Of a stretch of DNA of 64,000 nucleotides, positions 10,266 through 31,779 are shown piece after piece; position 1 is the first letter of the stretch, and the number at the start of each line of letters is the position of its first letter. The stretch comes from Lachnospiraceae bacterium (GTDB lineage Bacteria; Bacillota; Clostridia; Lachnospirales; Lachnospiraceae): the NCBI GenBank assembly GCA_028693165.1, contig JAQUVX010000005.1:124001-188000 (forward strand), written 5' to 3'. A program made the position numbers and the translations under genes. Under the pieces are notes generated by a model. That model saw nothing but the letters and a program-made list of their open reading frames with translations. It was not told the origin of the DNA and did no database searches.

Positions 10266-10273
10266 GAGGGAGA

Positions 10274-10360
10274 CCATAAGTTCCGGCCGAGTCCTGAATA
10301 AACACATGAGTTACCGCCCCACGAGCTTCCCGTCCTGAATAATCGGGGAAGCACTCACGA
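10274..10360 (-). pseudogene. degraded spoIVB 3'-end copy (left edge of island)
   Basis: The minus strand encodes VSASPIIQDGKLVG, then after one lost base VTHVFIQDSAG, matching the end of the intact SpoIVB (MSGSPIIQDGKLVG ... VTHVFIQDSTRG). The match breaks down before the stop. It begins at exactly the same codon as the second copy at 22641. It has no start of its own and is a remnant of a displaced gene end. Confidence 0.85.
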
Positions 10361-10602
10361 GTGAGTCAAGTAAGGGACAACAATTTTTCATTTTCTTATT
10401 CACTTTCTTATTCACTATGCTCAAGAAACTGACGAATAATACCTTTGATTCCTATTTCTTGGCTGTTCAGGAATTGTCATCTTCAGCAACCCTTTCTCCA
10501 ACATTTGGTTCATATAATGCCTTTTCAAGTAAGATCGATTGGATATATTAAATTTAACCATAATTTCCTTTACTGTTTTCGGCTCCTTACAGTAAAGCAA
10601 GA
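10274..10602. repeat. direct repeat, left copy (spoIVB tail + AlbA_2 gene end)
   Basis: This stretch matches 22550-22894 in the same orientation. It comprises the spoIVB tail, a shared AT-rich spacer (GTCAAGTAAGG-type) and the last ~55 codons of the AlbA_2 gene. Several long runs are identical in the AlbA_2 part. The two copies bracket the ~12-kb helicase operon. Confidence 0.85.
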
Positions 10603-11785
10603 TTTTATATGCAATATCTTGTCCATGTTCTTGTTCATTTGGTTCATGAACTTCATTTAACAGTTGCAAATAAGAATTGCAAGCTTTACACAAAACCATG
10701 ATGCCACTTTTTGTGATCTCATATTCCGGCAATGGACCACCATAAGATTCACACGCTTCTCGAATTTTGTCAAAACCACGTCCCCATGCTTCTATCATGC
10801 CGCTTTTAAAGAATACATTTGCCAATTTAGGATTATATGGTTTTGATGAATGTTTTTGAAAAAGCTTCTCAGTTGAATTAAATTCTTCTGGCATTTCACC
10901 ATCATTCCAGATATACATTCGGTCTTCATAAATACTGATCTGTATTGGATTGCAGCAGCTGTAGTCCTTATGAACAACAGCATTCAACAAGATTTCCCTT
11001 GTAGCATTACGATGGAACATGAATTGCTCTATCCGTTGAATATCCCGATAGGTAATGAGAGCCTTCATATATTTGGTATAAATCAAATCCAGAGTTTTAT
11101 CTACTTGTTCTATTAGCGCACCATGCACTTCATCCTGATATCGCAGATCTGAATCAGAATTTCCGAAAAAACCAATTTTAATGTAGGAACCAGTTACCCA
11201 TTTTTCAGGATCATCATAGAAAGCCAGCATCGCTGCTCTGGTGAGATAAACATCATCGTCGAAAAGGTGCAAATTTTCTAACAACACTTTGTCTGTGACT
11301 TTAGTCTCTTGTTCTGTCAACCGTCCCCTCTCAATCGCCTTTTTCTTAAAAAGTCTGATAGCTGATTGGCTCAAATCTTCAATTCTAAGCTTCGGTATTG
11401 GCATGCCATCCCATGTCCTTCCCTGAGACTTTAGAATAGCCCTGTCCAGTTCTTTCCCGGTAATAGTACGCATTGTACTCCCTGACCGGTAAAAATACTT
11501 TCCATGATAGCTAATAAGAGAAGGGTATTTATCTACAACAATCTCTAAATACTCTAACTCTCCTTCAAAGCAAAGATTTACATCTATAACAATACCCATT
11601 GTATCAGTCACCTGGCTTGGGATTTTCTCCAATAATTTTTTTGAATCCTTAATGCCTTTTACTCGGCCATAGTCATCCATACCAATGTACAAAGTACCGC
11701 CATTGGCATTTGCATAACCGCAAATCCATTCCAAATATTCGTTATGCCATGATTCTTTCCATTCAATTGTTTGATGTTCAGGCAT
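10421..11785 (-). CDS. AlbA_2 (Schlafen-like) / GHKL-type ATP-binding protein with C-terminal winged helix
   Basis: The 454-aa protein starts with an AlbA_2 domain (residues 5-120: IEWKESWHNEYLEWICGYANANGGTLYIGMDDYGRVKG). A middle part follows with GHKL-like features (about 255-360: NATREILLNAVVHKDYS ... GMIEAWGRGFDKI), then a winged helix (about 400-445). Such proteins are usually called putative transcriptional regulators or ATP-binding proteins, and some sit in defence loci. A GAGGGGGG precedes the ATG at 11785. It is last in the operon, 21 bases after the helicase stop. A ~50-codon fragment of a near-identical second copy is at 22738-22893. Confidence 0.8.
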   Translation of the reverse strand: MPEHQTIEWKESWHNEYLEWICGYANANGGTLYIGMDDYGRVKGIKDSKKLLEKIPSQVTDTMGIVIDVNLCFEGELEYLEIVVDKYPSLISYHGKYFYRSGSTMRTITGKELDRAILKSQGRTWDGMPIPKLRIEDLSQSAIRLFKKKAIERGRLTEQETKVTDKVLLENLHLFDDDVYLTRAAMLAFYDDPEKWVTGSYIKIGFFGNSDSDLRYQDEVHGALIEQVDKTLDLIYTKYMKALITYRDIQRIEQFMFHRNATREILLNAVVHKDYSCCNPIQISIYEDRMYIWNDGEMPEEFNSTEKLFQKHSSKPYNPKLANVFFKSGMIEAWGRGFDKIREACESYGGPLPEYEITKSGIMVLCKACNSYLQLLNEVHEPNEQEHGQDIAYKILLYCKEPKTVKEIMVKFNISNRSYLKRHYMNQMLEKGLLKMTIPEQPRNRNQRYYSSVS

Positions 11786-11806
11786 TATATCCCCCCCTCA
11801 TATTAT

Positions 11807-14800
11807 CTAACAGCCCTCAATAATTTTCTGTACTGCATATGGTTTTGCATATTTAATAAATAAGTCACTGATAAATATTGTATCCTTGCCATAAGGTTCA
11901 ACCCACATAGCGGGATAAACCACAATTTGCTTTTGTTTCCCCTGTCTGTGGACAGTAATTGAATCCGACATATTGTTTATTTTATGCCCGGATATATGAA
12001 GTATATGTGTTAGAGTATTCACATACACTACCTGCTTTTTGTTCGGAATAGCCTGTGCTAGAATCCCATATCTGCCCCAGTCCAAAAGTTCCAAAGCAGC
12101 AAAACGATCCAATAATCCATGAACATGATGATTCCTATAATGCTTTAAACAATTATGACAAGCATCCTCGCAGTCACAATTTCGCAAAAGTTCTTCTATT
12201 TTATCAAGCAATAACTCTATTTCATCAGCTACGCTCACTGCATATCCGGCGCCGCTAGAAAGACTGTCATACAAATAGATATCAACAAAGGTTCCCTTAT
12301 CATTTTCTCTCAGACGATACCCCGTTACCAACTCGGTAAACTCAACATCCAGTTCTTTGCTGGCCGCTAATCGGAAAGCCTCTGCTAGAGATTGAGCCGC
12401 ACGAAACAGCCAGGGATTATCATTTCTTTGAGTATCGATTCGATCATCATCTAAAGCAATCTCCAGCACAAGCATATCTGTGACAAAATCATAACCCAGA
12501 TTGACGTTCATTGCATTTAAATGTCCGCATTTACTTTGTGCAAACTTTGACCTATATGGCCGCCGAATTCCGTCGAGAACATGGATATCATCTCCTGGCA
12601 TTGCCGCGCCGCAATCTTTACACACCATAAAACCACAATTATCAACGCCTTTATTCAACATAATGATCCGCTGATTCGTTCTGGAAGCGATTCTTATGTG
12701 TTGGCAGGACGAAATTGGCATCATTTCGTCCGAATCCGGCAATGTAGAATACAGCGGCTGTTGAACTGCAGAATATTCTTCTGTCAACTGCGATTCTGGA
12801 ATCGCTTCCGCATTCTTTGGTGCAAACCCCCAGGGCCGAAGCATCTGCCTGTTTCTTTCAAGTACACTGTTTCCGCAAAATGGACACGCCTTTGTTTTTT
12901 CTTCTTCCAGACCAAACCATCCACATTCAGTACAGGAAAGAACTGGCTTTAAGTAATTAGGATCTTCTACATATGCACGAGCCGGTGTCAATGCCTGTCC
13001 CCGGTGCCGTTCACTTCCAGGATAAAAAATACCGCCTATCTGATAAGTCTGTTTATCAACTACAATAGCCCGTCCCGGTGCATACTCTCCTATTGCAATA
13101 TCCAATCCGCGGTCAACTTCATAGATTAACTTTCCATTTGTATCGGTAATATAAGTACTTACCACATTCTTTGGGAAAGAATATGTAGGTACAATGCCCT
13201 CTTCATATAAGGCATCCAGTAAATTTTTTGCAACACTTGTATTTGCATTTTCTTCGACATCAAATAATTCCGGATGAGCATCTCGTTTTTCCTTCAATAT
13301 TTCAAGCTCTTTTTGTAGTTCTGTCCGGAATATATCATAATCAACTACTGCATTAGCCGACATAAGTATATCTTCATCCCGAATCTCATATTCATCAGCA
13401 AAAGTGTAAAACTCCATCAAATAATCATCGACAAAACTCGCCGCAGAAATCTGATCCAAACTAGAACACTTCTCTGCAAGAAATTCCTGTAAAATCAACA
13501 TATTTAAATGTCTCTGAAGCAATTTCTTACTCTCGATATCAATCCATGGCTTTCTGGGATCACCTCTGAACATGGGAACCGGATTGTTAAAATATAGCGT
13601 ATCGTGGGGACCGTCTTCGCAAAATGTTACAATTGTAGATAAACTAGAGCCACGTCTGCCCGCACGTCCAGCGCGCTGTTGGTAATTTTCTCTCATGGGA
13701 GGAATATTTCTTAGCCCCACTGCAACGAGAGAACCTATATCAATCCCAACCTCCATAGTGGTGGTGCTGCTTAAAATATCAACCGGTACCTCGCCGTCCT
13801 GAATCAAATCCTGAAAGCGGAGTTCATACCTCTCAGTTTTACTCCACATATCATCTCGCTGATCTTTGTGGGATAGCTGAGCGGTATGTTCTTCGGTATC
13901 AATCACATGAATTTTGCCACCATTTAAGGCATCTTCGATGGGGCCACGCCAAAATCCCAAAGCCTCGTACTCTGTCTCTGACATTTCATGCACAGTTGCA
14001 GCACCACAACTCGGGCACTTACCGCGCAGTAAATACGGAGTTATTTCCGAACAGCGTTCGCACCTGTACCAAACGTACCGTGCATCAAATCTCGGTCTAA
14101 TGCGAGAAAGGTCTACATAAAACTTACCATTATCCGGTTGTGCCGAATCTAAAAAAGACTCCTTTAATGCTCTGCGCCAAACCTCAAGCACACCGGATTG
14201 ACCTTTCCATCCCATAATATTTTTAATGTTTTCCGAAAATTTCCAGTCTCTCTCAAGGCCATATCCAATATATTTTGCTCTGACATTATATCTTACTGTA
14301 TCCGAAATCGTATGACCTAAAGCCGTAGCCGTATCACAAATATAAATCATCCACGCATTAAACACTTCCAGAAATGCCTCGTGCGATATTTTGATTCCGT
14401 CTTCCTCCAACATATCCACTGCATCAAAAAGAGCCTGCTCCGTTGGCTCTATCCAACTGATTGCACAGTCATAAAGTGTATTATAACCGCCCGAAAACAA
14501 ACGCAGCAAATATGCCTGCATCTGTATAGGTGCATTAGTAATCGTAAATCTCGGCATGTAATCCTTTTTTCGTTTGAGGCAATACTTATAATTATTATGT
14601 GCAGAAATGCAGTCACCTACGAACTTTTCTCTTTCTGGTCCATAAAAAATTTGAACATGATGTTGATAGGCCGCAAGGCAAAAATAATCGTACAAAACAT
14701 TCATGGATTGCTCTTCTTTTGATTTTTCCATACTTTCAATCGCCAACACAAATAATTGTCGCACGGCCGTAAGATCAGACTCTTCTGACATATCACGAGC

Positions 14801-17056
14801 AAGTTTAGCTGCGCGCTGGCGGCTGTCAGAAAATAGCAATACTTTTCTTCCTTCATTTGGCAAATGATCTGGATCCCGCTCCTTGCCAGGAACTGCCGGC
14901 TGAACCTGAAACTGTGTATTAATCAAATTAAAAAAAGATTGGTTACCTCTAGTGCTAAATGAGGTTAACTGGGTTTGGGATAATCCATGTCTACAGTGCG
15001 GGCAGGTAGGAAATGTTACAATAAACGGCCGGCCCTTGACTGAATAATCGCAGTAATATAATTTTCTGATTCCAGGTTTATCAGCCAAAGAATCATCTCT
15101 AAAGTTTAAAAAACCGCTACTTACGTCCAGATAACATGGTTTGATTGGATTTTTACCTTGCTTTAAAGGAGGGATATAATCCTTTGTCGGAATAAACAGG
15201 TGAACCTCCCGCATATGGCGGTCTACCAATTGTCCCGGATAATGCCATAAATAAGCATTCTCACGAAAATTAGACTCCTCTTTTAAAATATACCCTTTAT
15301 AAAAAAGCGCTCCGCAGCGTCTGTCATTATAAAGCTCATACACAACACTGCCACAGTGAGGGCAGATAAGCCGATCCCCTGACAGAAAAACCTCTCCCAG
15401 AGTCAGCGTACCATCCGAATGGGAGTGCCCACAATCTTCATTCGTACAGGCATAAACGCCTCGAATCCCCCGGAACAGCATATGCATACGTGCAGGAAAC
15501 AGTACAGCACCTTTAGAGTTCTTAGCCATAGGGGCAATCGCTAAAAGAATACTTATTGCATTGAGTGAATTTTCTTCGTTCAAATTCGGAAAAATTGCTG
15601 TAGCCAATTCCCACAAAGATAATGCATTTCCACGACATCGGTTTATCAACTCATAAAAAGGCCTATACTCAATCAAATGCTCATACATCCATACATATAC
15701 TGATTCCAAATCAAGGAATGGAGCCGCTGCTCCCTCAACCTTATCCCAAAATTGATTTAGCGCCATCAAACGCGCATTATCTTTTCCATCAAAATCAGCT
15801 GCTTCTATTTCTTCAAACTTAGAGATAGCAATATCATATTTACATTTACCCTGTATTTCTTCCCTTTCACCTGTAAGATAGCAAAATTCAGTCTTATTAT
15901 TAGCCGAGGTCAGCCTATTTGCAAACTGAATTACTGCCTTTCGGTCATCGGCATTTCTAGCCGGCATACTAGCCGTAGTCAGTATAAATTGTACCTGGTC
16001 GCGTTTGACTCCCAGTTTATGAAACAAACGTCTTATAAGCAGAGCCACCTCCCCTCCCGCCGAACCTCTGTACATATGAGCCTCATCAATTACAAACAAC
16101 AGCTTATTAGACTTGTCCGCATTCAGCCAGTCTTTTGTATCAGACCAGATTTTTCCTTCTCTTGGCCTGAGAAGCATGTATTCCAGCATGGAATAGTTTG
16201 TTATCAAGATATCCGGGCAAAACTGCTGCATTTCAAACCTTGTAATAAGCTCGGCATCTTCATCACTTGGAGTATGGTGACTATTATGGAGTCCTTTAAG
16301 GAATGCACCCATGTCAGCTTTGGCAGGTACTTTTCCCTCCTTTGTCAGCTTATTAAAATAATCCTTTTCAGTCTCATTCTGTGGAAATGACATTCTGGCC
16401 AGGGTTTTCTCCAACAGATGATCCTGAGTTTTATCCGGCCTGTCTCCCGGATAAGGCGTTCGTCCGGTATACATGCCAAACTGTGGCCTGCGTACATCCA
16501 AACCACAAATATCTCGGAAAATAGTTAGAAACTTATTTTCCTGATCGCCAATGAGGCGCCTAAGTCTGCTAATTTGGTCCGAGACGAGAGCGTTCATCGG
16601 GTACATAATAATTGTCCTTACGCCCCGCATATGCCAGGAATCTTTTTGATTACGAGCTTCTGATGCCAATTTTGACATTAATGGCCACATAAAGCATTCT
16701 GTTTTACCAGAACCAGTACCCGTTGCAATAAAAAGATCTTTGCCCGCAGTTGCTGCTTCAAGCGCTCTAATTTGATGAACAAAAGGAGATGGGTATACAC
16801 CAAGTCCAGCCTCTGCTAATCTGTTAAAATAATCCTTTAACCATTCAGGCAAATCGGTGTGCTGTATACCATCATTTACGCTTTTGTATGCAGGTGATGA
16901 TTCTATAAAGGGCTTCTGATACAAAAGTCCTTCTCGATCCAATTGGTCACTAATTGCCGAGAGCAAGAGTGGCGATTTACCAAAATACTGGGATTTAATA
17001 TAATTTTCCAATTCATTACGCAACTGTTTATGGACAGAGTCCGCCCCGTTTGACAT
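11807..17056 (-). CDS. giant DEAH-box helicase with DUF1998/MZB C-terminus (DruE-like)
   Basis: This 1749-aa superfamily-2 helicase has Walker A ATGTGSGKTE at residues 111-120, DEAH at 324-327 (FVIDEAHMYRG), motif III TTAS at 360-363, and motifs V/VI in STTTMEVGIDIGS ... QQRAGRAGRRG. Zinc knuckles are scattered (CPHCGSVV, CERC ... CPSCG, CTEC ... CPFCG). It ends with the Cys cluster of DUF1998/MZB proteins (CDCEDACHNCLKHYRN ... LLDRFAALELL). Size and layout resemble DruE of Druantia and more distantly DrmA/DrmB of DISARM and MrfA repair helicases. A nucleic-acid translocase acting on invading DNA is likely. It is fourth in a tight operon, 3 bp after the 334-aa gene, with GAGGAAT before its ATG. 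Confidence 0.9.
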   Translation of the reverse strand: MSNGADSVHKQLRNELENYIKSQYFGKSPLLLSAISDQLDREGLLYQKPFIESSPAYKSVNDGIQHTDLPEWLKDYFNRLAEAGLGVYPSPFVHQIRALEAATAGKDLFIATGTGSGKTECFMWPLMSKLASEARNQKDSWHMRGVRTIIMYPMNALVSDQISRLRRLIGDQENKFLTIFRDICGLDVRRPQFGMYTGRTPYPGDRPDKTQDHLLEKTLARMSFPQNETEKDYFNKLTKEGKVPAKADMGAFLKGLHNSHHTPSDEDAELITRFEMQQFCPDILITNYSMLEYMLLRPREGKIWSDTKDWLNADKSNKLLFVIDEAHMYRGSAGGEVALLIRRLFHKLGVKRDQVQFILTTASMPARNADDRKAVIQFANRLTSANNKTEFCYLTGEREEIQGKCKYDIAISKFEEIEAADFDGKDNARLMALNQFWDKVEGAAAPFLDLESVYVWMYEHLIEYRPFYELINRCRGNALSLWELATAIFPNLNEENSLNAISILLAIAPMAKNSKGAVLFPARMHMLFRGIRGVYACTNEDCGHSHSDGTLTLGEVFLSGDRLICPHCGSVVYELYNDRRCGALFYKGYILKEESNFRENAYLWHYPGQLVDRHMREVHLFIPTKDYIPPLKQGKNPIKPCYLDVSSGFLNFRDDSLADKPGIRKLYYCDYSVKGRPFIVTFPTCPHCRHGLSQTQLTSFSTRGNQSFFNLINTQFQVQPAVPGKERDPDHLPNEGRKVLLFSDSRQRAAKLARDMSEESDLTAVRQLFVLAIESMEKSKEEQSMNVLYDYFCLAAYQHHVQIFYGPEREKFVGDCISAHNNYKYCLKRKKDYMPRFTITNAPIQMQAYLLRLFSGGYNTLYDCAISWIEPTEQALFDAVDMLEEDGIKISHEAFLEVFNAWMIYICDTATALGHTISDTVRYNVRAKYIGYGLERDWKFSENIKNIMGWKGQSGVLEVWRRALKESFLDSAQPDNGKFYVDLSRIRPRFDARYVWYRCERCSEITPYLLRGKCPSCGAATVHEMSETEYEALGFWRGPIEDALNGGKIHVIDTEEHTAQLSHKDQRDDMWSKTERYELRFQDLIQDGEVPVDILSSTTTMEVGIDIGSLVAVGLRNIPPMRENYQQRAGRAGRRGSSLSTIVTFCEDGPHDTLYFNNPVPMFRGDPRKPWIDIESKKLLQRHLNMLILQEFLAEKCSSLDQISAASFVDDYLMEFYTFADEYEIRDEDILMSANAVVDYDIFRTELQKELEILKEKRDAHPELFDVEENANTSVAKNLLDALYEEGIVPTYSFPKNVVSTYITDTNGKLIYEVDRGLDIAIGEYAPGRAIVVDKQTYQIGGIFYPGSERHRGQALTPARAYVEDPNYLKPVLSCTECGWFGLEEEKTKACPFCGNSVLERNRQMLRPWGFAPKNAEAIPESQLTEEYSAVQQPLYSTLPDSDEMMPISSCQHIRIASRTNQRIIMLNKGVDNCGFMVCKDCGAAMPGDDIHVLDGIRRPYRSKFAQSKCGHLNAMNVNLGYDFVTDMLVLEIALDDDRIDTQRNDNPWLFRAAQSLAEAFRLAASKELDVEFTELVTGYRLRENDKGTFVDIYLYDSLSSGAGYAVSVADEIELLLDKIEELLRNCDCEDACHNCLKHYRNHHVHGLLDRFAALELLDWGRYGILAQAIPNKKQVVYVNTLTHILHISGHKINNMSDSITVHRQGKQKQIVVYPAMWVEPYGKDTIFISDLFIKYAKPYAVQKIIEGC

Positions 17057-17059
17057 TTT

Positions 17060-18064
17060 TTATTCCTCTACGAATGTATATCCAATAGGTTCCAAAATAC
17101 TTTTTATTGCAAAAAAAACTTGATAATCAAAAATTCTGCTAAAATCGTCCGGCAAATCCACGCATGACTCAGGCCAACTGTAATGCTTAATCAGATTAAG
17201 TTCAGCTGGCGGTAGTAGATAGTGAATCCGCAATTGAACAATTTTGCCATCTATGTGATATGTGGATGCCGGCAGCCTTCCTACAGAAGCCAGGCACCCG
17301 TTAGACAGTGTTCTATAATAATTGTCGCTTACCATCCATTGAGGTAATTGACTCCCTAAAATCCGGTCTGCCTCTATCTTATACAAAAAGTAGATTTTGT
17401 TTCCAGGCAAACCAATTCGCGCCAAAGACACCATTCCTGAAATATCGGGCTTCTCAACCCAATAGTTATATATAAATGGCGGTTTTATACGGAGATACTC
17501 TATTTCATTCCCATCCTCGAGTGAATACCACTTTGCATGAGAAACCAAATATTTCCATTGCTCTGCAAGAGTATTTTGTGGTAGTTGAAACATATCTGTT
17601 GGTTGAATTACTGCTGGTTCATCTTCTGCGAAAGAATAGCTTCCAACACCACTTATATATAGTTTACGTTTTAAAGGCATACCGCGCAAAAAATAGATCC
17701 CATCCTTTTCAGATACAGCTTTAGCCGCAGGAGTAATCCTGTATGAAGCATGATATACCTGGCCAGTATATAAGAATATGTTATAGATTTCATTACTCAA
17801 TTCACTTATTGCATCCGGATAGAATCGGCAGAGTTCCGGATACATCTCCAAATAGCTTTCCAGTATAGATTCAATTCTATTTTTGAAATGCACAACAGAA
17901 ACGGGCTGTGAATCTTCCCGTATATCCCACAAAGAAGCATACCCCATCCGGCCAAGCAGGCTATAAATTATCCGGCTTTTCCAGGCATCCACTGTCTCTG
18001 TCTTTCCTTGAAAAATGCGAAACTCGTCAGCAATTCTGCCCAGTAAACGATTATATTGATTCAT
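17060..18064 (-). CDS. hypothetical protein of the helicase operon
   Basis: I do not recognise this 334-aa protein. The N-terminus is helical (RLLGRIADEFRIFQGKTETVDAWKSRIIYSLLGRMGYASLWD), followed by a mixed alpha/beta body rich in Tyr and Pro, with no membrane segment and no catalytic motif I can name. It overlaps the end of the 911-aa gene by 14 bp and ends 3 bp before the helicase gene, so production of the three is tightly linked. GGAG lies six bases before the ATG. A physical partner of the helicase is the simplest guess. Confidence 0.75.
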   Translation of the reverse strand: MNQYNRLLGRIADEFRIFQGKTETVDAWKSRIIYSLLGRMGYASLWDIREDSQPVSVVHFKNRIESILESYLEMYPELCRFYPDAISELSNEIYNIFLYTGQVYHASYRITPAAKAVSEKDGIYFLRGMPLKRKLYISGVGSYSFAEDEPAVIQPTDMFQLPQNTLAEQWKYLVSHAKWYSLEDGNEIEYLRIKPPFIYNYWVEKPDISGMVSLARIGLPGNKIYFLYKIEADRILGSQLPQWMVSDNYYRTLSNGCLASVGRLPASTYHIDGKIVQLRIHYLLPPAELNLIKHYSWPESCVDLPDDFSRIFDYQVFFAIKSILEPIGYTFVEE

Positions 18065-20786
18065 TTAATTCTCCAAAATATGTATTTATAAGAGCTATCA
18101 CATCAGAAGAAACCGCTAACGCTTTCTGTGGATTTCCAATTAATCCTTCTTTAAGAATACTTGTTTTTTCACAGGCATATGCATAGGGAATAAGAGCAAA
18201 AATACAATCATAATCATCATTATTATCCTGCGCTATCTCATGCATATCAGTTAGAACCTGCTGAATTATTTTTTTTGCAAAAGGACCTACCTTTATGGCG
18301 TTCAGTAATTTATCATGCCTGAGGTTAATCTTCACAGGAGTATAGTGTACAAACTTCTTCGACATATATCCACCAACAAAATTCCTTCCCGGAATTTTAT
18401 CCACAAAAAATTCGGTTAACAATGGGACCATGTAATTTAAAATTCCATTAGGTTCAATTAACAAATCTTCCGCATACAGATTAACTGCTATGTAAAACCG
18501 ACTTTTGTCAGATATAATCCCTGGTAAATATCGATTCCACGAATGGCAGAATGGATTTTCTATTGCAATAACCTGAGTTTCGCTAGGCATGGACTGCTCT
18601 ATCGCTGAAATCTGGCAATCATCATCAAGTCTCAGTGTTCCTGCCAAGCGGCCAAATAATGCTGCTGAAAAAGCGTCTGCTATTTCGCGTGCTCCAGGTC
18701 CTGCTAATAATAACGGTATATTGTTGACATAAGCGGCATATATATATGCTGCTAAACCTGCAGCAAACCGCTCAGAAACTCCTGCCTCTGCAAGTTCATA
18801 CATAAGCGTACTCTGCTGCTCATGCCAGTTATTCTCTGGCTCAAGTTCTTCTGTTGGCAAAAGTTTTCCCTCTGTAAAAACGTCTGCAAAAGCATTTGTT
18901 TGCGATATAGCAACAGTCCCTGCTGCAAGAGGTTGATAAAATGCGAAATCAGTAATAAAATCGGCTGCATTCTTTCTTGCATGTTCAATTCGTTCAGCTA
19001 CCTTCATTTCTACATCCGTAGCAAGTTGTTTTTGCTGCTCTATTGCAGATAGTATGTTCTCCAATTCTCCCTTTTTTTCTACATATTCTTTAGGTATTTG
19101 TCTAAGCACCTCTTTCTGCTTGGTAACTTTCCCTTGTACAAGTTCAAGTTCAGCATTAGCTTGTACAATTTGAGCCGCATTTTCTGACATCCACTCATCC
19201 GCTACAGCAGCTTTACATATTTCCTCGAATTCCGGGTGATTCTGAACGATGCTAGATATTAACTCGCTTTCTAAATCCGTTGCATTAAGATAGTTATCTG
19301 CACGCCGAACAAACAATTTTACGTATTCTTCTGATTCCTTCATACTGCAATCGCAAGCATCTGAAATTTCAGAATACAGTTCATCTGTAGGAAGTTCCTT
19401 TAGAAAACTTCTGAATTGTTGATATTCGTTTTTTACCAACCCTTTTTGTTTTGACGCCGTCCATGTTACCCGCTGCATTAGGATATTCTTAACTATTTCT
19501 AATGGATCCTTAATCCGTACAATCTTCCTTGGCATTCCAATATTAATAACGCGATGAATGTATCTTTCATTTACGGAAAATATATCTGTTTCCATAAACA
19601 CAAACATTGGCAATGAAAAAATATTCGCTCTTAACTTTGTTTTACTTTCTAACAAGTCCAGATTTTTTGAAGTACAGAATAATCCTTCATAAGTTCCGTT
19701 ATCATTCCAATAAGCATAGATCACCTTACCCGTTGCTATTTTTCCAATAATTCCATCTTTCATTTGGTTTATTACTTCATCTAACGTTGTGCAATCGCGA
19801 AGAATAATTACCTCAATTGGGGTATATTTATCATTATAGGCAGACTCAATAAAATCCCTATCTGGATTAGTGATGTTGGGTGTTACTGTCCAATCCCAGA
19901 TGCCAATAAAACCTTCCCCCGCAGGAGTATACTTCGTATAAAGCTTATTATATTCAGGTGCATCAGGCAGGTAATGACCTAAAATCACTCCATTTTCAAT
20001 GTCGGAAAGTCGAATTAATCTTGCACGTCCATCATGCCCCGGAACAACTTTACATAATGATGTATATTGATATGCCTCATCCCGAACCATTTCTCCGCAG
20101 GAAACAGAACTTTTTTCTAGTTTATGCAATTCGGCAAGTTCTGCTTCCAGAGCAACTGCCTCAGCTTTAATACACATAAGCTCTTTCTCTGCAACGTCTA
20201 GTGCTTTCTCCGTTTCTTCTGCTTTTATCGTCAATGTCTCTATTTTTTGTACATATTCTTTTTCAGAATCTCCCCATTTCTTCTTAGCTACCGAGAATTG
20301 TTCCTGTAATATAATATAAGTTTCATCTACTGAGAGTTCTTCAATATTGGAGGCTGCAACTTCCCTATTAGCCTGTATTAACTGTACCGCACTTGTAGCT
20401 AACTGAATATACTCTGTCGAGTAGGGCTCTTCTGACATTTTAAAATAGAGTTTCAAATTATCACTAAATTGAGTTTCGGGTAATGTCAGTAATAATGCAG
20501 TAGCCGGTTCCATCCCTTCCTTAATTAGTTTGGCTTTATGGTCATTGGCTTCATCAAGCCATCCTCTTATATAGCCATTTATAAAAGATCGGACAAACGG
20601 TTTACTTTTAAATCGGACAACTAACTTAATTGCTTCATCATCAGAAATTCCATTTGGACGATAGCCTGGACGAATTTTATTAAATTCTTTTGAATTCCTC
20701 TGGAAAAATAATTTAATTGTCTTTCCTGTAATAATGGTACAAATATAAGTAAGCTCCTCATCCGTAATTTTTTCAACAAAATCCAT
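18051..20786 (-). CDS. coiled-coil protein with degenerate P-loop ATPase-like C-terminal domain
   Basis: The 911-aa protein has a helical N-terminus, a coiled coil (about residues 155-230, heptad-like runs of Glu/Lys/Leu) and a middle region (about 235-480) possibly with ligand-binding character. A second coiled coil lies at about 545-615. A C-terminal segment (about 690-900) reads LLLAGPGAREIADAFSAALFG and then TQVIAIENPF, positioned like Walker A and B, but the P-loop lysine is replaced (GAREI), so ATP hydrolysis may be lost. No known family comes to mind. It is second in the operon (12 bp after the 520-aa gene), with AAGGAG before the ATG. Confidence 0.75.
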   Translation of the reverse strand: MDFVEKITDEELTYICTIITGKTIKLFFQRNSKEFNKIRPGYRPNGISDDEAIKLVVRFKSKPFVRSFINGYIRGWLDEANDHKAKLIKEGMEPATALLLTLPETQFSDNLKLYFKMSEEPYSTEYIQLATSAVQLIQANREVAASNIEELSVDETYIILQEQFSVAKKKWGDSEKEYVQKIETLTIKAEETEKALDVAEKELMCIKAEAVALEAELAELHKLEKSSVSCGEMVRDEAYQYTSLCKVVPGHDGRARLIRLSDIENGVILGHYLPDAPEYNKLYTKYTPAGEGFIGIWDWTVTPNITNPDRDFIESAYNDKYTPIEVIILRDCTTLDEVINQMKDGIIGKIATGKVIYAYWNDNGTYEGLFCTSKNLDLLESKTKLRANIFSLPMFVFMETDIFSVNERYIHRVINIGMPRKIVRIKDPLEIVKNILMQRVTWTASKQKGLVKNEYQQFRSFLKELPTDELYSEISDACDCSMKESEEYVKLFVRRADNYLNATDLESELISSIVQNHPEFEEICKAAVADEWMSENAAQIVQANAELELVQGKVTKQKEVLRQIPKEYVEKKGELENILSAIEQQKQLATDVEMKVAERIEHARKNAADFITDFAFYQPLAAGTVAISQTNAFADVFTEGKLLPTEELEPENNWHEQQSTLMYELAEAGVSERFAAGLAAYIYAAYVNNIPLLLAGPGAREIADAFSAALFGRLAGTLRLDDDCQISAIEQSMPSETQVIAIENPFCHSWNRYLPGIISDKSRFYIAVNLYAEDLLIEPNGILNYMVPLLTEFFVDKIPGRNFVGGYMSKKFVHYTPVKINLRHDKLLNAIKVGPFAKKIIQQVLTDMHEIAQDNNDDYDCIFALIPYAYACEKTSILKEGLIGNPQKALAVSSDVIALINTYFGELNESI

Positions 20787-20798
20787 CCCTTAGTCTCC

Positions 20799-22361
20799 TT
20801 ATTGCTTAAGTTTCGCGTCAATTAAAAATCTTTTCAGATATCGGAATGCATCTTCCGGTATGCATCCTATCTTAATTTTCTTATATACCCACCGTTTGAG
20901 TTTTGGATAATTTTTCAATTGATTGACTGCAGAACCAATTGAACGAGTTACAGGAATCATTTTTCCTCCCAATGCATCTAATGTTTTCAGGACGGCAGTT
21001 TCATCTGGCATCAAACTATACTGCTTATGTTCATAATATACTGACCAAACTAAATCAAGCCCCTGAAAAATTTTAACTTCAACTCCAGCTTGGATATTAT
21101 CAAGTTCTAACCTGCATCCCCCTTTGAGATTCCGCTTTTCAAAAATAATGTTATTTTTCAAAACAATTACAGTACCATCAAACGGGGCACTAATGCTTAA
21201 TAAGCCTCCTTTCGGTAATAAATATTGGGAACCCGCTCCTATTGTATTACCTTTTTTATCTGTGACTTCAATAACTGGTGCTGGTGCTGTTTCATCCATA
21301 TTTTCTTTCCATAGATAGGTATATAATAAAGCCTTTAAGTGCCCTACTGAAATCATCTGTTGGCGGCTTTTACACGTGAGACTTATTACCTGACCTTTTC
21401 CATTAGGACACAAAAAACTAGCTTGAGGCGTTTCAGGATATACTTTTGTTGTTATATCAATTTTTCCCCGTATATGCAAAAATAGCTGATTGGCTCTGTG
21501 GCGAATCACATACGGTGTTTCCACATAAATTGGCCAAACTGTTTGTAAAAAAACTGGAGTTTCTGTTAGCCTGCAACGAAAATCCAAAAAGAATCGCGCT
21601 GCGTCTTTTTTGAAGGCCGTTGCTTGAACCTCATATATGTACCATGAACCGTAAGACATTTTTTTCTCACATAGTTTTCTTACTTCTATACTCGGATAGT
21701 TCTTGTTCAGATATTGGGAACAAAGTAAATAGTAAACCTTGCCAGCTTGTACCTCTGCGCCATCAATCACTTTTTTTCCTGTTTTCTGATCAAAAATACT
21801 GCCGGAGCCATCAATTCCATTAACAAAACGTGGCCAAAATATTCTAAGTTCCTCACTTGAAGTTAATTCATATTTATAAGCTGGGGTAGTTCCGACAAAT
21901 ACATATGTAATTGATTCTGAATTCAAACGCTCAAAGGAGTATATGTAAGGTTTTCCGCTAACGCCTAACGGTTGGATGATAATTTGTTGCTGTTTTTGCA
22001 TCTGCAATATAGATGTTGGAATATATAATAACCCAATTTCCAATTCAAAATCGTCCCTTGTAATATTAGAAAGTCGTATGGGAAGCTCGTGCTCTTCATC
22101 GATATAATCTACACTTGCTGATAATCCGGTAGTTCGTTCCGGACAATTTTTGCAGGTATCATATGCGTTATGCTTGAAATAACGAGCATTTTTTCTGCCA
22201 TTTGTAAGAATTACATACTGTCCACATAATTCGCATACAAATAATCCGCTATGTGCGGAAACAGTACCTCCAGGATATAATTTGGCCGCTTCTGACGCTG
22301 TTATTTTTCTCCATTCATGTTCTGCCTCTGACCACATACTAACATGTGTCAATGAAGCCAT
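20799..22361 (-). CDS. CoiA-like zinc-finger, beta-rich protein (first gene of the operon)
   Basis: The 520-aa protein has an N-terminal metal-binding module (about residues 45-75) with FVCELCGQYVILTNGRKNARYFKH followed by CKNCPE. This resembles the CoiA-type N-terminus, where Cys pairs precede a hydrophobic-His strand. The rest is mostly beta-strand (for example GTVIVLKNNIIFEKRNLKGG), ending in a basic helical region (about 480-520). The function is unknown; nucleic-acid recognition is a guess from the zinc module. It leads the operon, with a GGAGGAGA ribosome site and its own promoter upstream. Confidence 0.75.
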   Translation of the reverse strand: MASLTHVSMWSEAEHEWRKITASEAAKLYPGGTVSAHSGLFVCELCGQYVILTNGRKNARYFKHNAYDTCKNCPERTTGLSASVDYIDEEHELPIRLSNITRDDFELEIGLLYIPTSILQMQKQQQIIIQPLGVSGKPYIYSFERLNSESITYVFVGTTPAYKYELTSSEELRIFWPRFVNGIDGSGSIFDQKTGKKVIDGAEVQAGKVYYLLCSQYLNKNYPSIEVRKLCEKKMSYGSWYIYEVQATAFKKDAARFFLDFRCRLTETPVFLQTVWPIYVETPYVIRHRANQLFLHIRGKIDITTKVYPETPQASFLCPNGKGQVISLTCKSRQQMISVGHLKALLYTYLWKENMDETAPAPVIEVTDKKGNTIGAGSQYLLPKGGLLSISAPFDGTVIVLKNNIIFEKRNLKGGCRLELDNIQAGVEVKIFQGLDLVWSVYYEHKQYSLMPDETAVLKTLDALGGKMIPVTRSIGSAVNQLKNYPKLKRWVYKKIKIGCIPEDAFRYLKRFLIDAKLKQ

Positions 22362-22524: not shown

Positions 22525-22641
22525 TCAATGCTCCATCATTGCCTCAATAAATATCCCTTGCCCTCTGTTGGATTCCTGGACAAAGACATGAGTCACAGTG
22601 CCAACCAATTTGCCGTTCTGGATGATGGGGCTACCGCTCAC
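22525..22641 (-). pseudogene. second displaced spoIVB 3'-end copy, with stop codon
   Basis: The minus strand reads [19 protein letters not shown] and goes on to end in FIEAMMEH-stop. The intact SpoIVB has MSGSPIIQDGKLVGAVTHV and ends in FIENMIEH-stop. Most differences are silent or conservative, so this was once a working gene end, from a related but different allele. Homology begins precisely at the codon before SGSP and is preceded by unrelated DNA. Confidence 0.88.
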
Positions 22642-22894
22642 GTGTGTGTCAAGTAAGGAACAACATTTTTTATTTTCTTAATCACTTTCTTGTTCATTTC
22701 TTGTTCACTATGTTCAAGAAACCGATGAATAATACCTTTAATTCCTGTTTCTTGGCTGTTCAGGAATTGTCATCTTCAACAATCCTTCCTCCAACATTTG
22801 GCTCATGTAATGCCTTTTCAAGCAAGATCGATTAGATATATTAAATTTGACCATGATTTCCTTTACTGTTTTCGGTTCCTTACAGTAAAGCAAA
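22550..22894. repeat. direct repeat, right copy (spoIVB tail + AlbA_2 gene end)
   Basis: Counterpart of 10274-10602 in the same orientation, with the same junction between the spoIVB tail and the GTCAAGTAAGG spacer. Recombination between the two copies would delete the whole helicase operon. Confidence 0.85.
22738..22893 (-). pseudogene. AlbA_2 protein gene fragment (C-terminus only)
   Basis: The minus strand encodes CKEPKTVKEIMVKFNISNRS and on through MTIPEQPRNRN, nearly identical to the end of the intact 454-aa protein. It stops early because CAA has become TAA at 22738-22740. Homology continues past the stop to about 22700. It has no 5' part and so is a dead remnant. Confidence 0.85.
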
Positions 22895-22932: not shown

Positions 22933-23316
22933 TCACGCAAACAGATGGACAGCCTTTATTTTTTTACCATTTTCCATTCTAGCCATACATCTATAATAAA
23001 CATACATTTTCTTATTACCAGACGCGCATTGCCTTTTCATTTTGTCTCCATAAATTACCCACGTCAATAAACTGGTATATGCTTTTTCCCTTCGTTCCTT
23101 TCCAACTCCGGAGTATGCATCTAATATTATCTGTACTTGCATAAATTCATCCATTGTAACAATTGAATCATGTGATTTTCTATCTAAGTCACCCTGAATT
23201 ATACTTATCTTTCTCCTTCCCTCTTCGTAATGGTTTTCTCGGTACACCCACTCGAGTGTCCCCAAGAACATCTGCCTTACCACCACTGCTGCCCAGTCAT
23301 CAATTGCAAAATGTCG
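22933..23316 (-). pseudogene. degenerate large serine recombinase remnant
   Basis: The open frame encodes IDDWAAVVVRQMF, then YEEGRRKISI ... FMQVQIILD, then YTSLLTWVIYGDKMKR ... MYVYYRC. These echo, in order, the recombinase domain (IDEEEAAIVRRIF), the QGRRKIS and VQEIL region, and the zinc ribbon (LLSGLVYCGDCGRKM ... YYRC) of large serine recombinases. The first cysteine pair of the ribbon is lost and the catalytic resolvase domain is absent, with a stop just upstream. I take it as the inactive integrase of the remnant element; the family call rests on pattern only. Confidence 0.55.
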
Positions 23317-23476
23317 GTCTCATATAGTTGAAGTCTCATATCCATAGATATTTCTGTATCCTCTATATTCCATCATATACGCGCCCTTCTTTATATTGTT
23401 AATGCCCTCACCCATGCAAAAACAAAAAATCAAGTATGAGTACTTTATCTTGCAAATTTTATCATTTACATAAGAA

Positions 23477-23503
23477 AAGCAGCCTGAACGTCACAAGCTG
23501 CTT
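23477..23503 (-). terminator. probable terminator downstream of spoIVB
   Basis: Inverted repeat AAGCAGC / GCTGCTT (7 bp, 13-nt loop) followed on the minus strand by TTCTTATG. It lies about 60 bases past the spoIVB stop. Confidence 0.55.
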
Positions 23504-23563
23504 CCCTAAATTCTATTCTATCTTATCTCAAAATTTATGCTTCTGTTCTGGTCTATACTCATT

Positions 23564-24841
23564 TCAATGCTCGATCATATTCTCAATAAAGATCCCATAC
23601 CCTCTGGTACTGTCCTGTATAAACACGTGCGTCACTGCCCCCACGAGCTTCCCATCCTGAATAATCGGAGAGCCACTCATTCCCTGAATAATCCCCCCAG
23701 TCAAACGCAGTAAAGTTTCATCTACCACCCGAATCACCATACTTTTGTTCTTTTGCACGGGGTTGTAGTCTACGCGTTGGATCTCGATTTCATAGTCGCG
23801 CAGCTCGCCGGAGACATCGCTGCGGATCCAGGCATGGCCTTTTTTTATGTCCTGGCGGTGGCCGATCTCCAGGGGCTGGGCGGAGAGATTTTTGCGCATC
23901 TGTTCGTTGACGGTTCCGAAGATTCCGGTCTCGCGGTTGGCTGTCACCGTTCCGAGGCAGGAGCCGGGGCCGTAGTAGATGACGCCTGCCATGACACCGG
24001 GCTTGCCCGCCGCGCCCTTCTCGATTCCGAGAATTTCTGTCTCATAAAGCGCTCCGGTCTCCATCTCCACCACGCTGCCGGTATCGCTGTCGCTGATGCC
24101 GTGGCCCAGTGCGCCGAACTGTCCGTTTGCATCAATGTAGGTCATCGTTCCGATTCCCTGCGTGTCATCGCGCACCCACGCCCCCAGCTTGTAGGTGCCG
24201 TCCTCGGCCCGCACCGGACGCATGGGAACCTCGATCTGTTTTCCCTCTCTGCGGATGCGCAAAAGTGCCTCCTCTCCGCTCATGTGATTGAGATTTGAGA
24301 TCAATGCCTCCTTGTCCCGCAGAGGCTCCCCGTTGATCGCCTCAATATAATCGCCGGACTGAAGAATGCCGTAGGCGGGTTCCACCTCCTGCCCCTGGCT
24401 GTCCATGATCCGCCCGGTTCCGATCACCATAACGCCCTTCGCCTTCAGATAAATGCCGACCGGCAGTCCACACGGAATGGCATATTCGCTGCTGCCTACA
24501 TCCAGCCGGATTTCCTTGAGCGGGATGGCCCCGAACAGTTTCAGATTGAGACGGTAGCTCCCCTCCTGGTTGGCGTAAAGCGCCAGCGGTTCCTCCACGC
24601 GCAGCCGGACTTCCCCGGAAGGAATATTGGATGGCTGTCCTAACACCACTTCCTCGCTGTCACTTTGCAGCGTCACATCGAAGGGCAGCTCCAGATTCAG
24701 AAGCTCCTGTTCGTTTGCTACAATATGAAAAGAGTCCGGTATTCTCCGTTCCATATAATACCAGGTATAACCGATGGTAAACATCAGGCTGACCCAGAAT
24801 GTCCAGATCAGATATCTGCGAAATTTCTGTCGTCCTGTCAT
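23564..24841 (-). CDS. spoIVB: SpoIVB serine peptidase, sigma-K checkpoint signalling
   Basis: This 425-aa exported protease (S55 family) signals from the forespore to activate pro-sigma-K processing. It has an N-terminal membrane anchor (about residues 10-28, YLIWTFWVSLMFTIGYTWYY), a PDZ domain (about 100-190, ending in the region of MSGEEALLRIRREGK) and a peptidase domain with a candidate His in GALGHGISDSD and the catalytic Ser in GMSGSPIIQDG. The ATG at 24841 has AGGAGG at 8 bp; the frame's earlier ATG at 24865 does not. It follows recN as usual. spo0A, its normal downstream neighbour, is absent here: a mobile remnant begins at its stop. Confidence 0.95.
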   Translation of the reverse strand: MTGRQKFRRYLIWTFWVSLMFTIGYTWYYMERRIPDSFHIVANEQELLNLELPFDVTLQSDSEEVVLGQPSNIPSGEVRLRVEEPLALYANQEGSYRLNLKLFGAIPLKEIRLDVGSSEYAIPCGLPVGIYLKAKGVMVIGTGRIMDSQGQEVEPAYGILQSGDYIEAINGEPLRDKEALISNLNHMSGEEALLRIRREGKQIEVPMRPVRAEDGTYKLGAWVRDDTQGIGTMTYIDANGQFGALGHGISDSDTGSVVEMETGALYETEILGIEKGAAGKPGVMAGVIYYGPGSCLGTVTANRETGIFGTVNEQMRKNLSAQPLEIGHRQDIKKGHAWIRSDVSGELRDYEIEIQRVDYNPVQKNKSMVIRVVDETLLRLTGGIIQGMSGSPIIQDGKLVGAVTHVFIQDSTRGYGIFIENMIEH

Positions 24842-24916
24842 CTCACATACCTCCTCATGTATCACAAGTTCCTTTTGTAGTATGTGAGTAAATCAGCGAA
24901 TCAACCCTGTTAATTA

Positions 24917-26587
24917 TTACAACATCAGCGTTTCTCTGGTATGCTCTGCCAGTTTTTTCATCTCGCGCGCATTTTGAAGCACCGCATCGGTGATCTCCGC
25001 GCCGCCCAAAAGTCTGGCAAGCTCCGCCACCATCGCTTCCTTGTCAAGCGCTCGAATCCGCGTCGTGGTCTTGCCCTCCGAGGCCGATTTGGCGATCTCG
25101 TAATGACAGTCCGCCATGGCCGCGATCTGCGGCAGATGGGTGATGCACAGCACCTGGTGGGTTCTGGAAATAATCGCAAGCTGTTCCGATACCTTCTGCG
25201 CCGTCCGCCCGCTGATACCGGTGTCGATCTCATCAAAGATCAGGGTCGGAATGTCGTCGCTGTCGGCCAGCACCGTCTTGATCGCCAGCATGATACGGGA
25301 TAATTCACCGCCGGAAGCCACCATGCCAAGAGAGCGTTCCGGCTCGCCCGGATTCGTGGAGATCACGAACTCCGCCTCATCAAATCCATTGGCCGTATAA
25401 TGATCCAAACGCCGGAATTCCATGGAAAAGCTCACGTGCAGGAAATTCAAATCTTCCAGTCCCTGCCGGATCTGCCCGGTCAGAACCGTCGCCGCCTGCT
25501 GCCGTTCCTTAGACAAAGCCGCACTCTGTGCCTCAAGCTGCCCGTTGATCTTCTGGTAATCCTGTTCCAGCTGCTGCCGATATTCGTCAAAATGTTCCAG
25601 CTGCTCCAGCCGTTTCTTTTTTTCTTCCAGAGCATCCTGAATCTGGCTCACCGTGCTCCCGTATTTCGCCTGTAGATTGTGGATCAGATCCAGCCGCGCC
25701 TCGATCTCGGCAAGCTCCGCCTCATCAAAATTCAAATCCTCCAGGTATGCTCCGATCGTGTGATGGACATCATTTAAGATGGATTCCGCGTCATAAAGCT
25801 GGCTTTGAATCTCCTTTAATGCCTCGTCATAGGCCGCCACCTCGCCGATCTGGTGCAGCGCGCGCCCGATGTTGTCGGACTCCGCCGCCTCATAGGCCAC
25901 CGCCAGATTTTCCATAATTTTCCGTCCGTTGGCATATTTGCGGTACTGTTCTGTCAGTATCTCCTCCTCGCCGTCTTTTAATGCAGCCTGCTCGATCTCC
26001 TCGACCTCAAACTGCAAAAAATCGGCTTCCCGACGCCTGCTGTCCTGATCTGTATTCGCCTGCTCCAGCGCCTCCTGCAAATCCCGATACTGCCGGTACA
26101 ATGCAGAAATTTTTTCTTTGATTGGACTGGTTTGGTGTTTTGCGTAGGTATCCAGAATCTCCAGATGTTTCGAGACATGGAGCAGAGACTGATGCTCATG
26201 CTGACCATGAATGTCAAGCAAAAGGCCCGTCACCTGCTTTAATTTGGCTGCGGTCACGGTCTCATCGTTGATCTTGCTGATGCTGCGGGCAGGAAGAATC
26301 TTGCGGGTAATGATCAGCAGACCATCTTCATCCGGATGCACATCCAGCGCCTCCAGAAGCGGCCGCTTGTCCGCCCCCACAGAAAAGATCAGCTCCACAT
26401 AGGCGTACTCCGCCCCGCTTCGTATGATTTCCTTTGATGCCTTCTGGCCCAGCGCCAGATTGACCGAACCGATGATAATCGACTTACCGGCACCGGTCTC
26501 ACCGGTCAGAATGTTGAGTCCGTCTCCAAACTCCACATCGGCCTGCTCGATCAGCGCCAGATTTTTCACATGTAATTCAAGCAGCAT
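24917..26587 (-). CDS. recN: DNA repair protein RecN
   Basis: This 556-aa SMC-like ATPase helps hold and repair double-strand breaks. Walker A is in ILTGETGAGKSIIIGSVNLALG (residues ~27-48), coiled-coil arms run about 155-370, the ABC signature is in MVASGGELSRIMLAIK and Walker B in TLIFDEIDTGISG. Length is typical. It lies between argR and spoIVB in the standard clostridial order, 12 bp after argR. Confidence 0.97.
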   Translation of the reverse strand: MLLELHVKNLALIEQADVEFGDGLNILTGETGAGKSIIIGSVNLALGQKASKEIIRSGAEYAYVELIFSVGADKRPLLEALDVHPDEDGLLIITRKILPARSISKINDETVTAAKLKQVTGLLLDIHGQHEHQSLLHVSKHLEILDTYAKHQTSPIKEKISALYRQYRDLQEALEQANTDQDSRRREADFLQFEVEEIEQAALKDGEEEILTEQYRKYANGRKIMENLAVAYEAAESDNIGRALHQIGEVAAYDEALKEIQSQLYDAESILNDVHHTIGAYLEDLNFDEAELAEIEARLDLIHNLQAKYGSTVSQIQDALEEKKKRLEQLEHFDEYRQQLEQDYQKINGQLEAQSAALSKERQQAATVLTGQIRQGLEDLNFLHVSFSMEFRRLDHYTANGFDEAEFVISTNPGEPERSLGMVASGGELSRIMLAIKTVLADSDDIPTLIFDEIDTGISGRTAQKVSEQLAIISRTHQVLCITHLPQIAAMADCHYEIAKSASEGKTTTRIRALDKEAMVAELARLLGGAEITDAVLQNAREMKKLAEHTRETLML

Positions 26588-26599
26588 GCTTTCTTCCCC

Positions 26600-27049
26600 C
26601 TATTCTGCGATCAGTTTTTTGATCTTATCCATCACCAGAATCGTATCGTCCACACTGCGCACTGCGCACATGATGGTGTCATCCCCCGCGATGCAGCCCA
26701 CGATCTCGTGGAAATGGATCGCATCCAATGCAGCCGCCACAGCCATCGCCATGCCCGACACCGTCTTGATGACCAGAATATTCTGCGCCATATCCATCGA
26801 GGCGTATCCGTCCTTCAGAATACGGATATATTTGTCACTCAGCACGCCCTGACTGTGCATGACCATATAGCGCTGTCTGCCGTTCTCGCCCTGCACCTTG
26901 GTCAGCTTCAGCTCCCGGATATCACGGGAAACCGTCGCCTGTGTCACGTTGTAGCCGGCACGTTTTAAGTGCTCTGCCAGTTCCTCCTGTGTCTCGATCT
27001 CATATTTTCCGATCAGCTCCACAATCTTGCTGTGTCGTTCCAGTTTCAT
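26600..27049 (-). CDS. argR: arginine repressor ArgR/AhrC
   Basis: The 149-aa protein has an N-terminal winged helix (KIVELIGKYEIETQEELAEHLKRAGYNVTQATVSRDIRELKL, residues 8-50) and a C-terminal hexamerising, arginine-binding domain with the signature GCIAGDDTIMCAVR. It represses arginine synthesis genes and activates catabolism in the presence of arginine. It sits between nadK and recN, the conserved place in clostridia. If the dehydrogenase at the left end acts in ornithine use, ArgR may be relevant, but no ARG box was identified there. Confidence 0.95.
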   Translation of the reverse strand: MKLERHSKIVELIGKYEIETQEELAEHLKRAGYNVTQATVSRDIRELKLTKVQGENGRQRYMVMHSQGVLSDKYIRILKDGYASMDMAQNILVIKTVSGMAMAVAAALDAIHFHEIVGCIAGDDTIMCAVRSVDDTILVMDKIKKLIAE

Positions 27050-27065
27050 TGCGTTCCTCCCGCGC

Positions 27066-27920: not shown

Positions 27921-27933
27921 ACCATTCTCCCGT

Positions 27934-28737: not shown

Positions 28738-28753
28738 CGGTTGTTCCTTTCCC

Positions 28754-30670: not shown

Positions 30671-30688
30671 GGTAATTTCCTTTATCCT

Positions 30689-31772: not shown

Positions 31773-31779
31773 TGTTCTG

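Follow-up and report, generated by a model that had tools for sequence, protein, structure and literature searches.

What kind of defence system, if any, is encoded by a compact operon on an AT-rich island of a Lachnospiraceae genome? The locus lies in a window of 64,000 nucleotides, the whole stretch of DNA analysed here (Lachnospiraceae bacterium, assembly GCA_028693165.1, contig JAQUVX010000005.1, positions 124,001 to 188,000 of the forward strand; the assembly has 3.6 Mb in 42 contigs and is 94% complete). An earlier note, made from the letters of the window, had proposed that five genes form a defence system of a new or unnamed type. We think it probable that the locus is a four-gene operon of the Druantia type I lineage without DruA, most likely anti-phage, which is carried on an element integrated at spoIVB together with a rider gene of the AlbA_2 type. 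The five open reading frames (ORFs) are present at 10421-22361, all on the minus strand, and in the order of transcription they are:

20799..22361, minus strand: gene 1, DruB homologue, CoiA_N-like, 520 amino acids (aa)
18051..20786, minus strand: putative DruC homologue, coiled-coil protein, 911 aa
17060..18064, minus strand: DruD homologue, 334 aa
11807..17056, minus strand: DruE, YprA-like superfamily 2 (SF2) helicase with an MZB/DUF1998 end, 1749 aa
10421..11785, minus strand: last gene, protein with SLFN_AlbA_2, HATPase_c_4 and Fic-like_C domains (Pfam), 454 aa

The packing is as tight as had been claimed (gaps of 21 base pairs (bp) or less, or overlaps): successive ORFs are spaced by 12 bp, -14 bp (an overlap), 3 bp and 21 bp, and the four druB-druE ORFs are intact. 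The operon is also AT-rich, as described before, with a G+C content of 0.36-0.42 versus 0.49-0.57 at 23001-33000 (2-kb windows). Scans for promoters and terminators in this sequence stayed at the level of shuffled controls (47 vs 46.4 and 11 vs 10.4, respectively).

The assignment to Druantia starts from the helicase. The 1749-aa protein matches the PADLOC model DruE1 with 1751.8 bits over residues 2-1746, compared with 624.6 bits for DruE2, 584 for DruE4 and 546.7 for DruE3, while its matches to DpdJ (70.7 bits) and DrmA (41.1 bits) are weak. Pfam recognises DEAD, Helicase_C and MZB domains, in agreement with its first description as a DEAH helicase with an MZB end, and the DruE1 match covers the full length. 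In 11 aligned DruE sequences the four cysteines of the end domain are invariant, as are the columns that we take to be Walker A, DEAH and motif VI.

Concerning the three genes upstream of DruE, the earlier note had seen no relation to Druantia, and this part of its argument does not hold: profile comparisons link them to DruB, DruD and, on weaker evidence, DruC. The canonical references in these comparisons are a few distant loci, for example plasmid pKF715A of P. putida, four genes of which match the DruA1, DruB1, DruC1 and DruD1 models with at least 386 bits each; one reference, L101 (L, G and C denote our handles for loci, genomes and contigs), is itself without DruA. The alignments took part of the listed references (54 of 75 for DruC, 58 of 75 and then 51 for DruB, 58 of 76 for DruD).

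The 520-aa protein matches PADLOC DruB1 with 29.9 bits (E 6.9e-8), and the profile of its family matches canonical DruB with a probability of 99.3 (E 2.6e-20, 272 columns) when the two sides have no row in common; two shared rows had given E 3.3e-29, and the link is weaker without them but still stands. Its description as a CoiA-like zinc protein is borne out in so far as a CoiA_N-like region is present, although below threshold in Pfam (21.8 bits vs a cut-off of 26.3). A CxxC-H-C cluster (C43, C46, H64 and C73) is invariant both in 52 and in 59 aligned sequences. The 334-aa protein behaves similarly, with 29.5 bits for PADLOC DruD1 (E 8.9e-8) and a family profile that matches canonical DruD with a probability of 98.0 (E 2.9e-13) over 319 columns; its structure model has a predicted local distance difference test score (pLDDT) of 93.6 and no match in PDB or BFVD at E <= 0.001.

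The 911-aa protein has no match in PADLOC. It occupies the place of DruC within the quartet, and its family profile matches canonical DruC with a probability of 90.3 (E 1.5e-6) over 73 columns only, in the region of a degenerate P-loop. The structure model (pLDDT 81.3, predicted template modelling score 0.41) has a helical N-terminus, coiled-coil helices at 124-225 and 518-610 (about 100 residues each), a beta-rich middle and a C-terminal AAA+-like module with the degenerate P-loop. Foldseek found nothing for this model at E <= 0.001; beyond that threshold there is a weak resemblance to RFC (E 1.6e-3) and to RavA (probability 0.98 at E 0.014). The broken P-loop that had been remarked upon is real, and the Walker lysine is missing from this loop in most aligned relatives too (consensus LLLAGPNAxxIA). 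Because of these profile comparisons with the canonical references, the 520-aa and 334-aa proteins are a divergent DruB and a divergent DruD, and the 911-aa coiled-coil protein is most likely DruC.

No DruA (PF14236, DUF4338) was found at the locus or in the searchable genome, which confirms and extends the earlier remark that the operon lacks it. Likewise, PF14236 was found in none of the ten genomes of the same family that carry a full-length DruE (the window's own and nine others). As controls, the model matched two DruA-bearing plasmids (W01, E 5.8e-82; W03, E 1.2e-82) and gave no match in W02, a contig of 11.8 kb. A wider view comes from an alignment scan with DruE over the genome_contigs collection (84,980 species), where at least 568 relatives were confirmed and the best 80 by similarity were kept; the share of loci without DruA is accordingly that of the window's neighbourhood and not of all Druantia type I. 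In these best 80, DruA lies near the operon in three (L100, L105 and L107, detected with our own profile), and PF14236 occurs anywhere in the genome in five, that is, in those three and in two with a short protein elsewhere. The genome of L107 (G474, contig C1) has, besides the DruA at the operon, four short PF14236 frames of 303 aa at other places, all with equal scores, a pattern that a repeated mobile element would give.

The quartet itself is conserved among these relatives. In 64 loci the contig reaches 5.3 kb or more upstream of DruE, and in 61 of these, all but L048, L100 and L105, the same strand carries DruB, DruC and DruD ahead of DruE. Where the genes are single-copy (59 loci), median gaps in the order B-C-D-E are -4, -4 and -1 bp. 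The contig continues for 1.5 kb or more upstream of DruB in 59 of the 61, and only one of these 59 has a DruA. The earlier suggestion to check whether the partners co-occur with the helicase thus has a divided answer, positive for DruB, DruC and DruD and negative for the AlbA_2 gene, which is a singleton among the neighbours within 150 bp of the quartet in 92 loci; the implied five-gene unit reduces to its first four genes, which alone travel together in the loci examined. L048 differs from the other loci with room in that its DruB, DruC and DruD lie downstream of DruE and are encoded on the other strand.

Sequence distances of the partners follow those of DruE closely (DruB r 0.92 over 68 loci, DruC 0.84 over 71, DruD 0.93 over 70), and none of 300 permutations reached values as high. 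Shuffle tests on labels probe clustering only. In a FastTree phylogeny of 87 DruE (L024 and L025, the same contigs as L078 and L106, were left out of trees), the window falls in a clade of 76 rows with support 100 and a stem of 0.7, none of which has a local DruA. Outside this clade are the six DruA-bearing rows, plus five without DruA (L092, L094, L098, L101 and L108). FastTree warned of two long branches joined (L015 and L018). The clade (57 rows) was recovered again, with a Shimodaira-Hasegawa-like approximate likelihood ratio test support of 100 and a branch of 0.75, when a short IQ-TREE search was run on 65 rows of this set, the other 22 having been dropped (three long or odd sequences, and 19 for thinning). 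As the sample is limited to the 80 most similar relatives, the clade may contain DruA-bearing members.

Members of the DruA-less clade are mostly Bacillota, with others in Bacteroidota, Planctomycetota, Pseudomonadota and further phyla (organism labels are those of the sequence records, many of which are metagenome bins), and this presence in several phyla suggests transfer between them. At closer range the distribution is sporadic: DruE was found at E <= 1e-50 in 11 of 397 genomes of the same family, the window's own included, ten of them with a near full-length protein and one with a remnant of 126 aa. An even draw from the phylum gave matches at E <= 1e-40 in 4 of 398 genomes (own included), too few for an estimate of DruA loss.

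These data bear on the possibility that the locus is a decaying or incomplete Druantia type I, a non-working remnant of an element from which DruA was lost. DruA is absent indeed, and one relative (G381) holds only the 126-aa DruE remnant; however, the four ORFs of the window are intact, and the four-gene form is conserved and co-diverges over many genomes and phyla, as would not be expected of debris. We consider decay unlikely.

Clustering of the immediate neighbours of the quartet in 92 loci (first gene within 150 bp of the core plus the next upstream) gave a small number of recurrent families. In 15 loci from 13 distinct genomes, the gene right after DruE (gap of -4 to 53 bp) encodes a D12 N6-adenine methyltransferase; the domain was confirmed by Pfam in all eight that were run (L024, L102, L026, L082, L088, L090, L104 and L106), and distances of this enzyme follow those of DruE (r 0.89 in the 13 genomes, 0 of 1000 permutations as high). 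A C5 methyltransferase precedes DruB in eight loci. An endonuclease comes after it in L056, L057, L063 and L065 (Eco47II family) and in L022, L060 and, by similarity, L061 (EcoO109I family). The listed ORFs of L059 include no endonuclease, and L062 has an Eco47II gene at the contig end. These type II pairs before DruB combine two unrelated Pfam endonuclease families with related C5 methyltransferases. The C5 methyltransferase may be exchanged, because it tracks DruE only weakly (r 0.37 over eight loci, 40 of 1000 permutations as high); that of L022 matches the DruM2 model with 314 bits. Finally, an HTH_26 protein of 77-91 aa precedes DruB in seven loci, of which two represent a single contig; the Pfam assignment covers two of the proteins. 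The loci with D12 and those with restriction-modification genes form two different subclades, and the window belongs to a third one of 35 rows, with no recurrent partner except a small helix-turn-helix (HTH) gene in three rows.

The operon is bordered by displaced pieces of a host gene, as shown by the following features:

23564..24865, minus strand: spoIVB, host gene of the element (Peptidase_S55, 277 bits; synteny with G172)
22933..23286, minus strand: 117-aa ORF with weak serine recombinase similarity, possible integrase remnant
22697..22893, minus strand: 3'-end remnant of a second AlbA_2 gene (repeat D1, 92% identical to 10404-10600)
22525..22641, minus strand: displaced 3' end of spoIVB (38 codons and a stop; its protein sequence is 77% identical to the end of native SpoIVB; tblastn)
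10270..10358, minus strand: third spoIVB 3' end, frame-broken, at the left island border (repeat D2, tblastn)

With the native 3' end at 23564-23672 there are three copies of the end of spoIVB, and there is a direct repeat of 197 nucleotides, which supports the earlier claim of an integrated island. Each displaced spoIVB end adjoins a shared stretch and the 3' end of an AlbA_2 gene, which at 10421 is intact and at 22697-22893 survives as a remnant. The three ends suggest a repeatedly used attachment site within the GMSGSP codons of spoIVB, and the simplest reading of the sequence is that an element that integrates at these codons and brings a new 3' end would have done so twice in tandem. The 117-aa ORF sits in the older remnant and has only weak similarity to recombinases (Zn_ribbon_recom, E 0.19 in Pfam; XisF, E 0.011 in NCBIfam). 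A literature search for spoIVB as an insertion site gave no paper that names the gene. In a genome of the same genus (G172) the gene order is argR-recN-spoIVB-spo0A. In the source genome, spo0A, a starch-synthase-like gene and others lie on contig C23 at about 80000-86300 (L143), so that the chromosome or the assembly breaks at or left of the island, by rearrangement or misassembly.

No near-identical island DNA was found in plasmids, and no DNA in viral_contigs matched patterns of the window's helicase. Two records of a phage collection match the helicase, one of them an unverified metagenome contig of 11.8 kb; DruD as a query matched nothing in the same collection. The record labelled 'Bacteriophage sp.' (L016, MT836687.1, 1-11801) encodes DruB, DruC and a DruE truncated by 583 residues at its start; DruD is absent, an IS110-type transposase lies upstream, and this contig may be bacterial.

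Sporadic spread (11 of 397 genomes) and integration at spoIVB support an anti-phage operon of the Druantia type I lineage, and the earlier note was right to see a defence-type operon with a Druantia-class helicase and without DruA on an integrated island. A Druantia-like helicase quartet with another role, such as exclusion of plasmids and other elements or DNA repair, is a quite unlikely alternative: YprA-like helicases do include repair enzymes, and YprA of B. subtilis matches DruE (E 3.2e-15), but the sporadic spread, the integrated position and the restriction-modification partners in a sister subclade fit defence; nothing in these data speaks against exclusion of plasmids or other elements.

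What, then, of the fifth gene? Its ATPase assignment is correct (SLFN_AlbA_2, HATPase_c_4 and Fic-like_C in Pfam), and its position, 21 bp behind DruE and in the same orientation, would agree with a new five-gene system in which it is the essential fifth component. Distant AlbA_2 proteins (22-31% identity) also occur in L048 and L097, close to DruE, and in L028, close to a DruE remnant, L079 has a fragment of 106 aa, and these cases speak for a loose tie between distant AlbA_2-type genes and Druantia islands. However, relatives of the gene at E <= 1e-40 occur in 26 of 250 genomes of the same family (own included), and none of the ten regions fetched around them has a match to DruB-E or to SpoIVB. 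In two of these ten the gene is near other defence genes (eight ORFs of five regions were tested), namely a type I restriction enzyme in L131, and Hachiman HamB with a PADLOC candidate in L137. Moreover, a second copy of the AlbA_2 3' end stands next to a spoIVB end at the opposite border, the pattern expected for the terminus of an element. We judge an essential fifth component very unlikely, and a five-gene unit was rejected as a candidate given the singleton status of the gene in 92 loci and the 10 of 10 regions away from DruB-E; it looks like a rider that travels with defence cargo, with no conserved partnership with Druantia. The locus L028 (G381) has the 126-aa DruE remnant, 75% identical to that of the window, between pieces of AlbA_2-like genes, and we read it as a decayed copy of a similar island.

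Relative to the known systems, the window is closest to Druantia type I, described as DruA (DUF4338), DruB to DruD of unknown function, and DruE (PMC7251935). It shares with type I a DruE1 and homologues of DruB, DruD and probably DruC in the order B-C-D-E; it differs by the lack of DruA, by the high divergence of its DruB, DruC and DruD, and by the D12 methyltransferase, or C5 methyltransferase and endonuclease, in two subclades of its clade. Filed strictly, it would fall outside type I for want of DruA, and the new type suggested by the earlier note becomes, by the DruE1 score and the B/C/D profiles, a branch of the type I lineage that lacks DruA. Types II and IV have a helicase of the DruE family too, and the C5 methyltransferase DruM of type II recalls the restriction-modification subclade, but the window's DruE scores 1752 bits for DruE1 against 625 for DruE2 and 584 for DruE4, and PADLOC found no DruF, DruG, DruM or DruL in the five genes; type IV is described as DruE and DruF with DruL in the PADLOC paper (PMC8565338). 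Type III shares the DruE helicase, and the mechanism proposed below is borrowed from it, but it has two genes (DruH-DruE) against four, and no DruH was matched by PADLOC in the five genes.

Membership in DISARM, ARMADA or Dpd is most improbable: a YprA-like helicase is shared and DpdJ and DrmA match weakly, yet DruE1 leads by more than 1600 bits, the helicase and DUF1998 end are in one protein, unlike in DISARM (DrmA only 41.1 bits), and no PglX, BrxHII, DrmB, DrmC or 7-deazaguanine enzyme was named in the five genes beyond weak helicase cross-matches.

Bell et al. 2025 (PMC12458937) describe an unappreciated diversity of Druantia I and II, with inactivated CnuB homologues (the type IV CoCoNuT view of these systems) and a DruE that has an inactivated Vsr domain. 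The coiled coils and the dead AAA+-like module of the probable DruC agree with that view of Druantia I and II, and the dead P-loop is not new, because the inactivated CnuB homologues are already published there. A DruA-less type I lineage and its methyltransferase or restriction partners are undescribed in the accessible text of the literature covered, including PMC12458937 and the CoCoNuT paper PMC11090510; supplements are outside this scope, and the tables of Bell et al. may hold such a lineage. A literature search on Druantia type I in Lachnospiraceae gave no paper that names this type.

By its homologies, the quartet likely works in a Druantia-like manner. The DruE of type III is described as loading on 3' single-stranded DNA, assembling on long single strands and degrading long DNA (PMC13192584), and DruH-DruE as stopping circularization and replication of phage DNA (PMC13316683). 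By analogy with these type III papers, from which both substrate and outcome are drawn, DruE of the window would load on single-stranded or branched DNA from phage replication. DruB, as a zinc-binding protein, DruC and DruD may act as a sensor or adaptor that restricts DruE to infection DNA, roles that are suggested by anatomy only. The outcome would be a replication intermediate that is stalled or destroyed. Since the quartet contains no recognised nuclease, replication arrest or recruitment of a host nuclease is as likely as direct cleavage. The input of DruA may be dispensable or come from DruB, DruC and DruD; in two sister subclades, enzymes that modify DNA possibly provide it.

Several points weigh against a working Druantia type I-lineage operon. 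The link to DruC is made by 73 columns, gene position and a shared dead P-loop, and DruB and DruD reach only about 30 bits in PADLOC. Two of the best 80 genomes without a local DruA hold a short PF14236 protein elsewhere, and DruA of the source genome could sit in the missing 6% of the assembly. The defence role of the window and of the other DruA-less members is argued from homology, the mechanism of type III may not carry over to type I, and in the published view DruE of type I ends in an inactivated nuclease domain (PMC12458937).

We put forward more tentatively, as a possibility rather than an expectation, that there is a large and mostly Bacillota lineage of Druantia without DruA, in which BCDE would be the minimal engine acting on infection DNA and the position of DruA as input module would be vacant or taken over by enzymes of DNA modification (in one subclade an N6-adenine methyltransferase, in another a C5 methyltransferase with an Eco47II- or EcoO109I-like endonuclease), so wiring the system in these lineages to DNA methylation. 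A naturally occurring operon of four genes that lacks DruA singles out the core proteins and allows the role of DruA to be tested by comparison, and the methyltransferase and restriction subclades hint at a way in which a helicase defence may be tied to DNA marks of self and non-self. The PADLOC check that the earlier note had called for gave a strong match for DruE, about 30 bits for DruB and DruD and no match for DruC, and because of such scores loci of this kind may be missed or filed as incomplete.

Elsewhere in the window, a prophage with a contractile tail occupies 37263-60540 on the minus strand. Eight of the ten ORFs tested in this region match PHROGs for baseplate, tail, tape measure, sheath, heads, portal and terminase, the head matches being a major head and a minor head protein.

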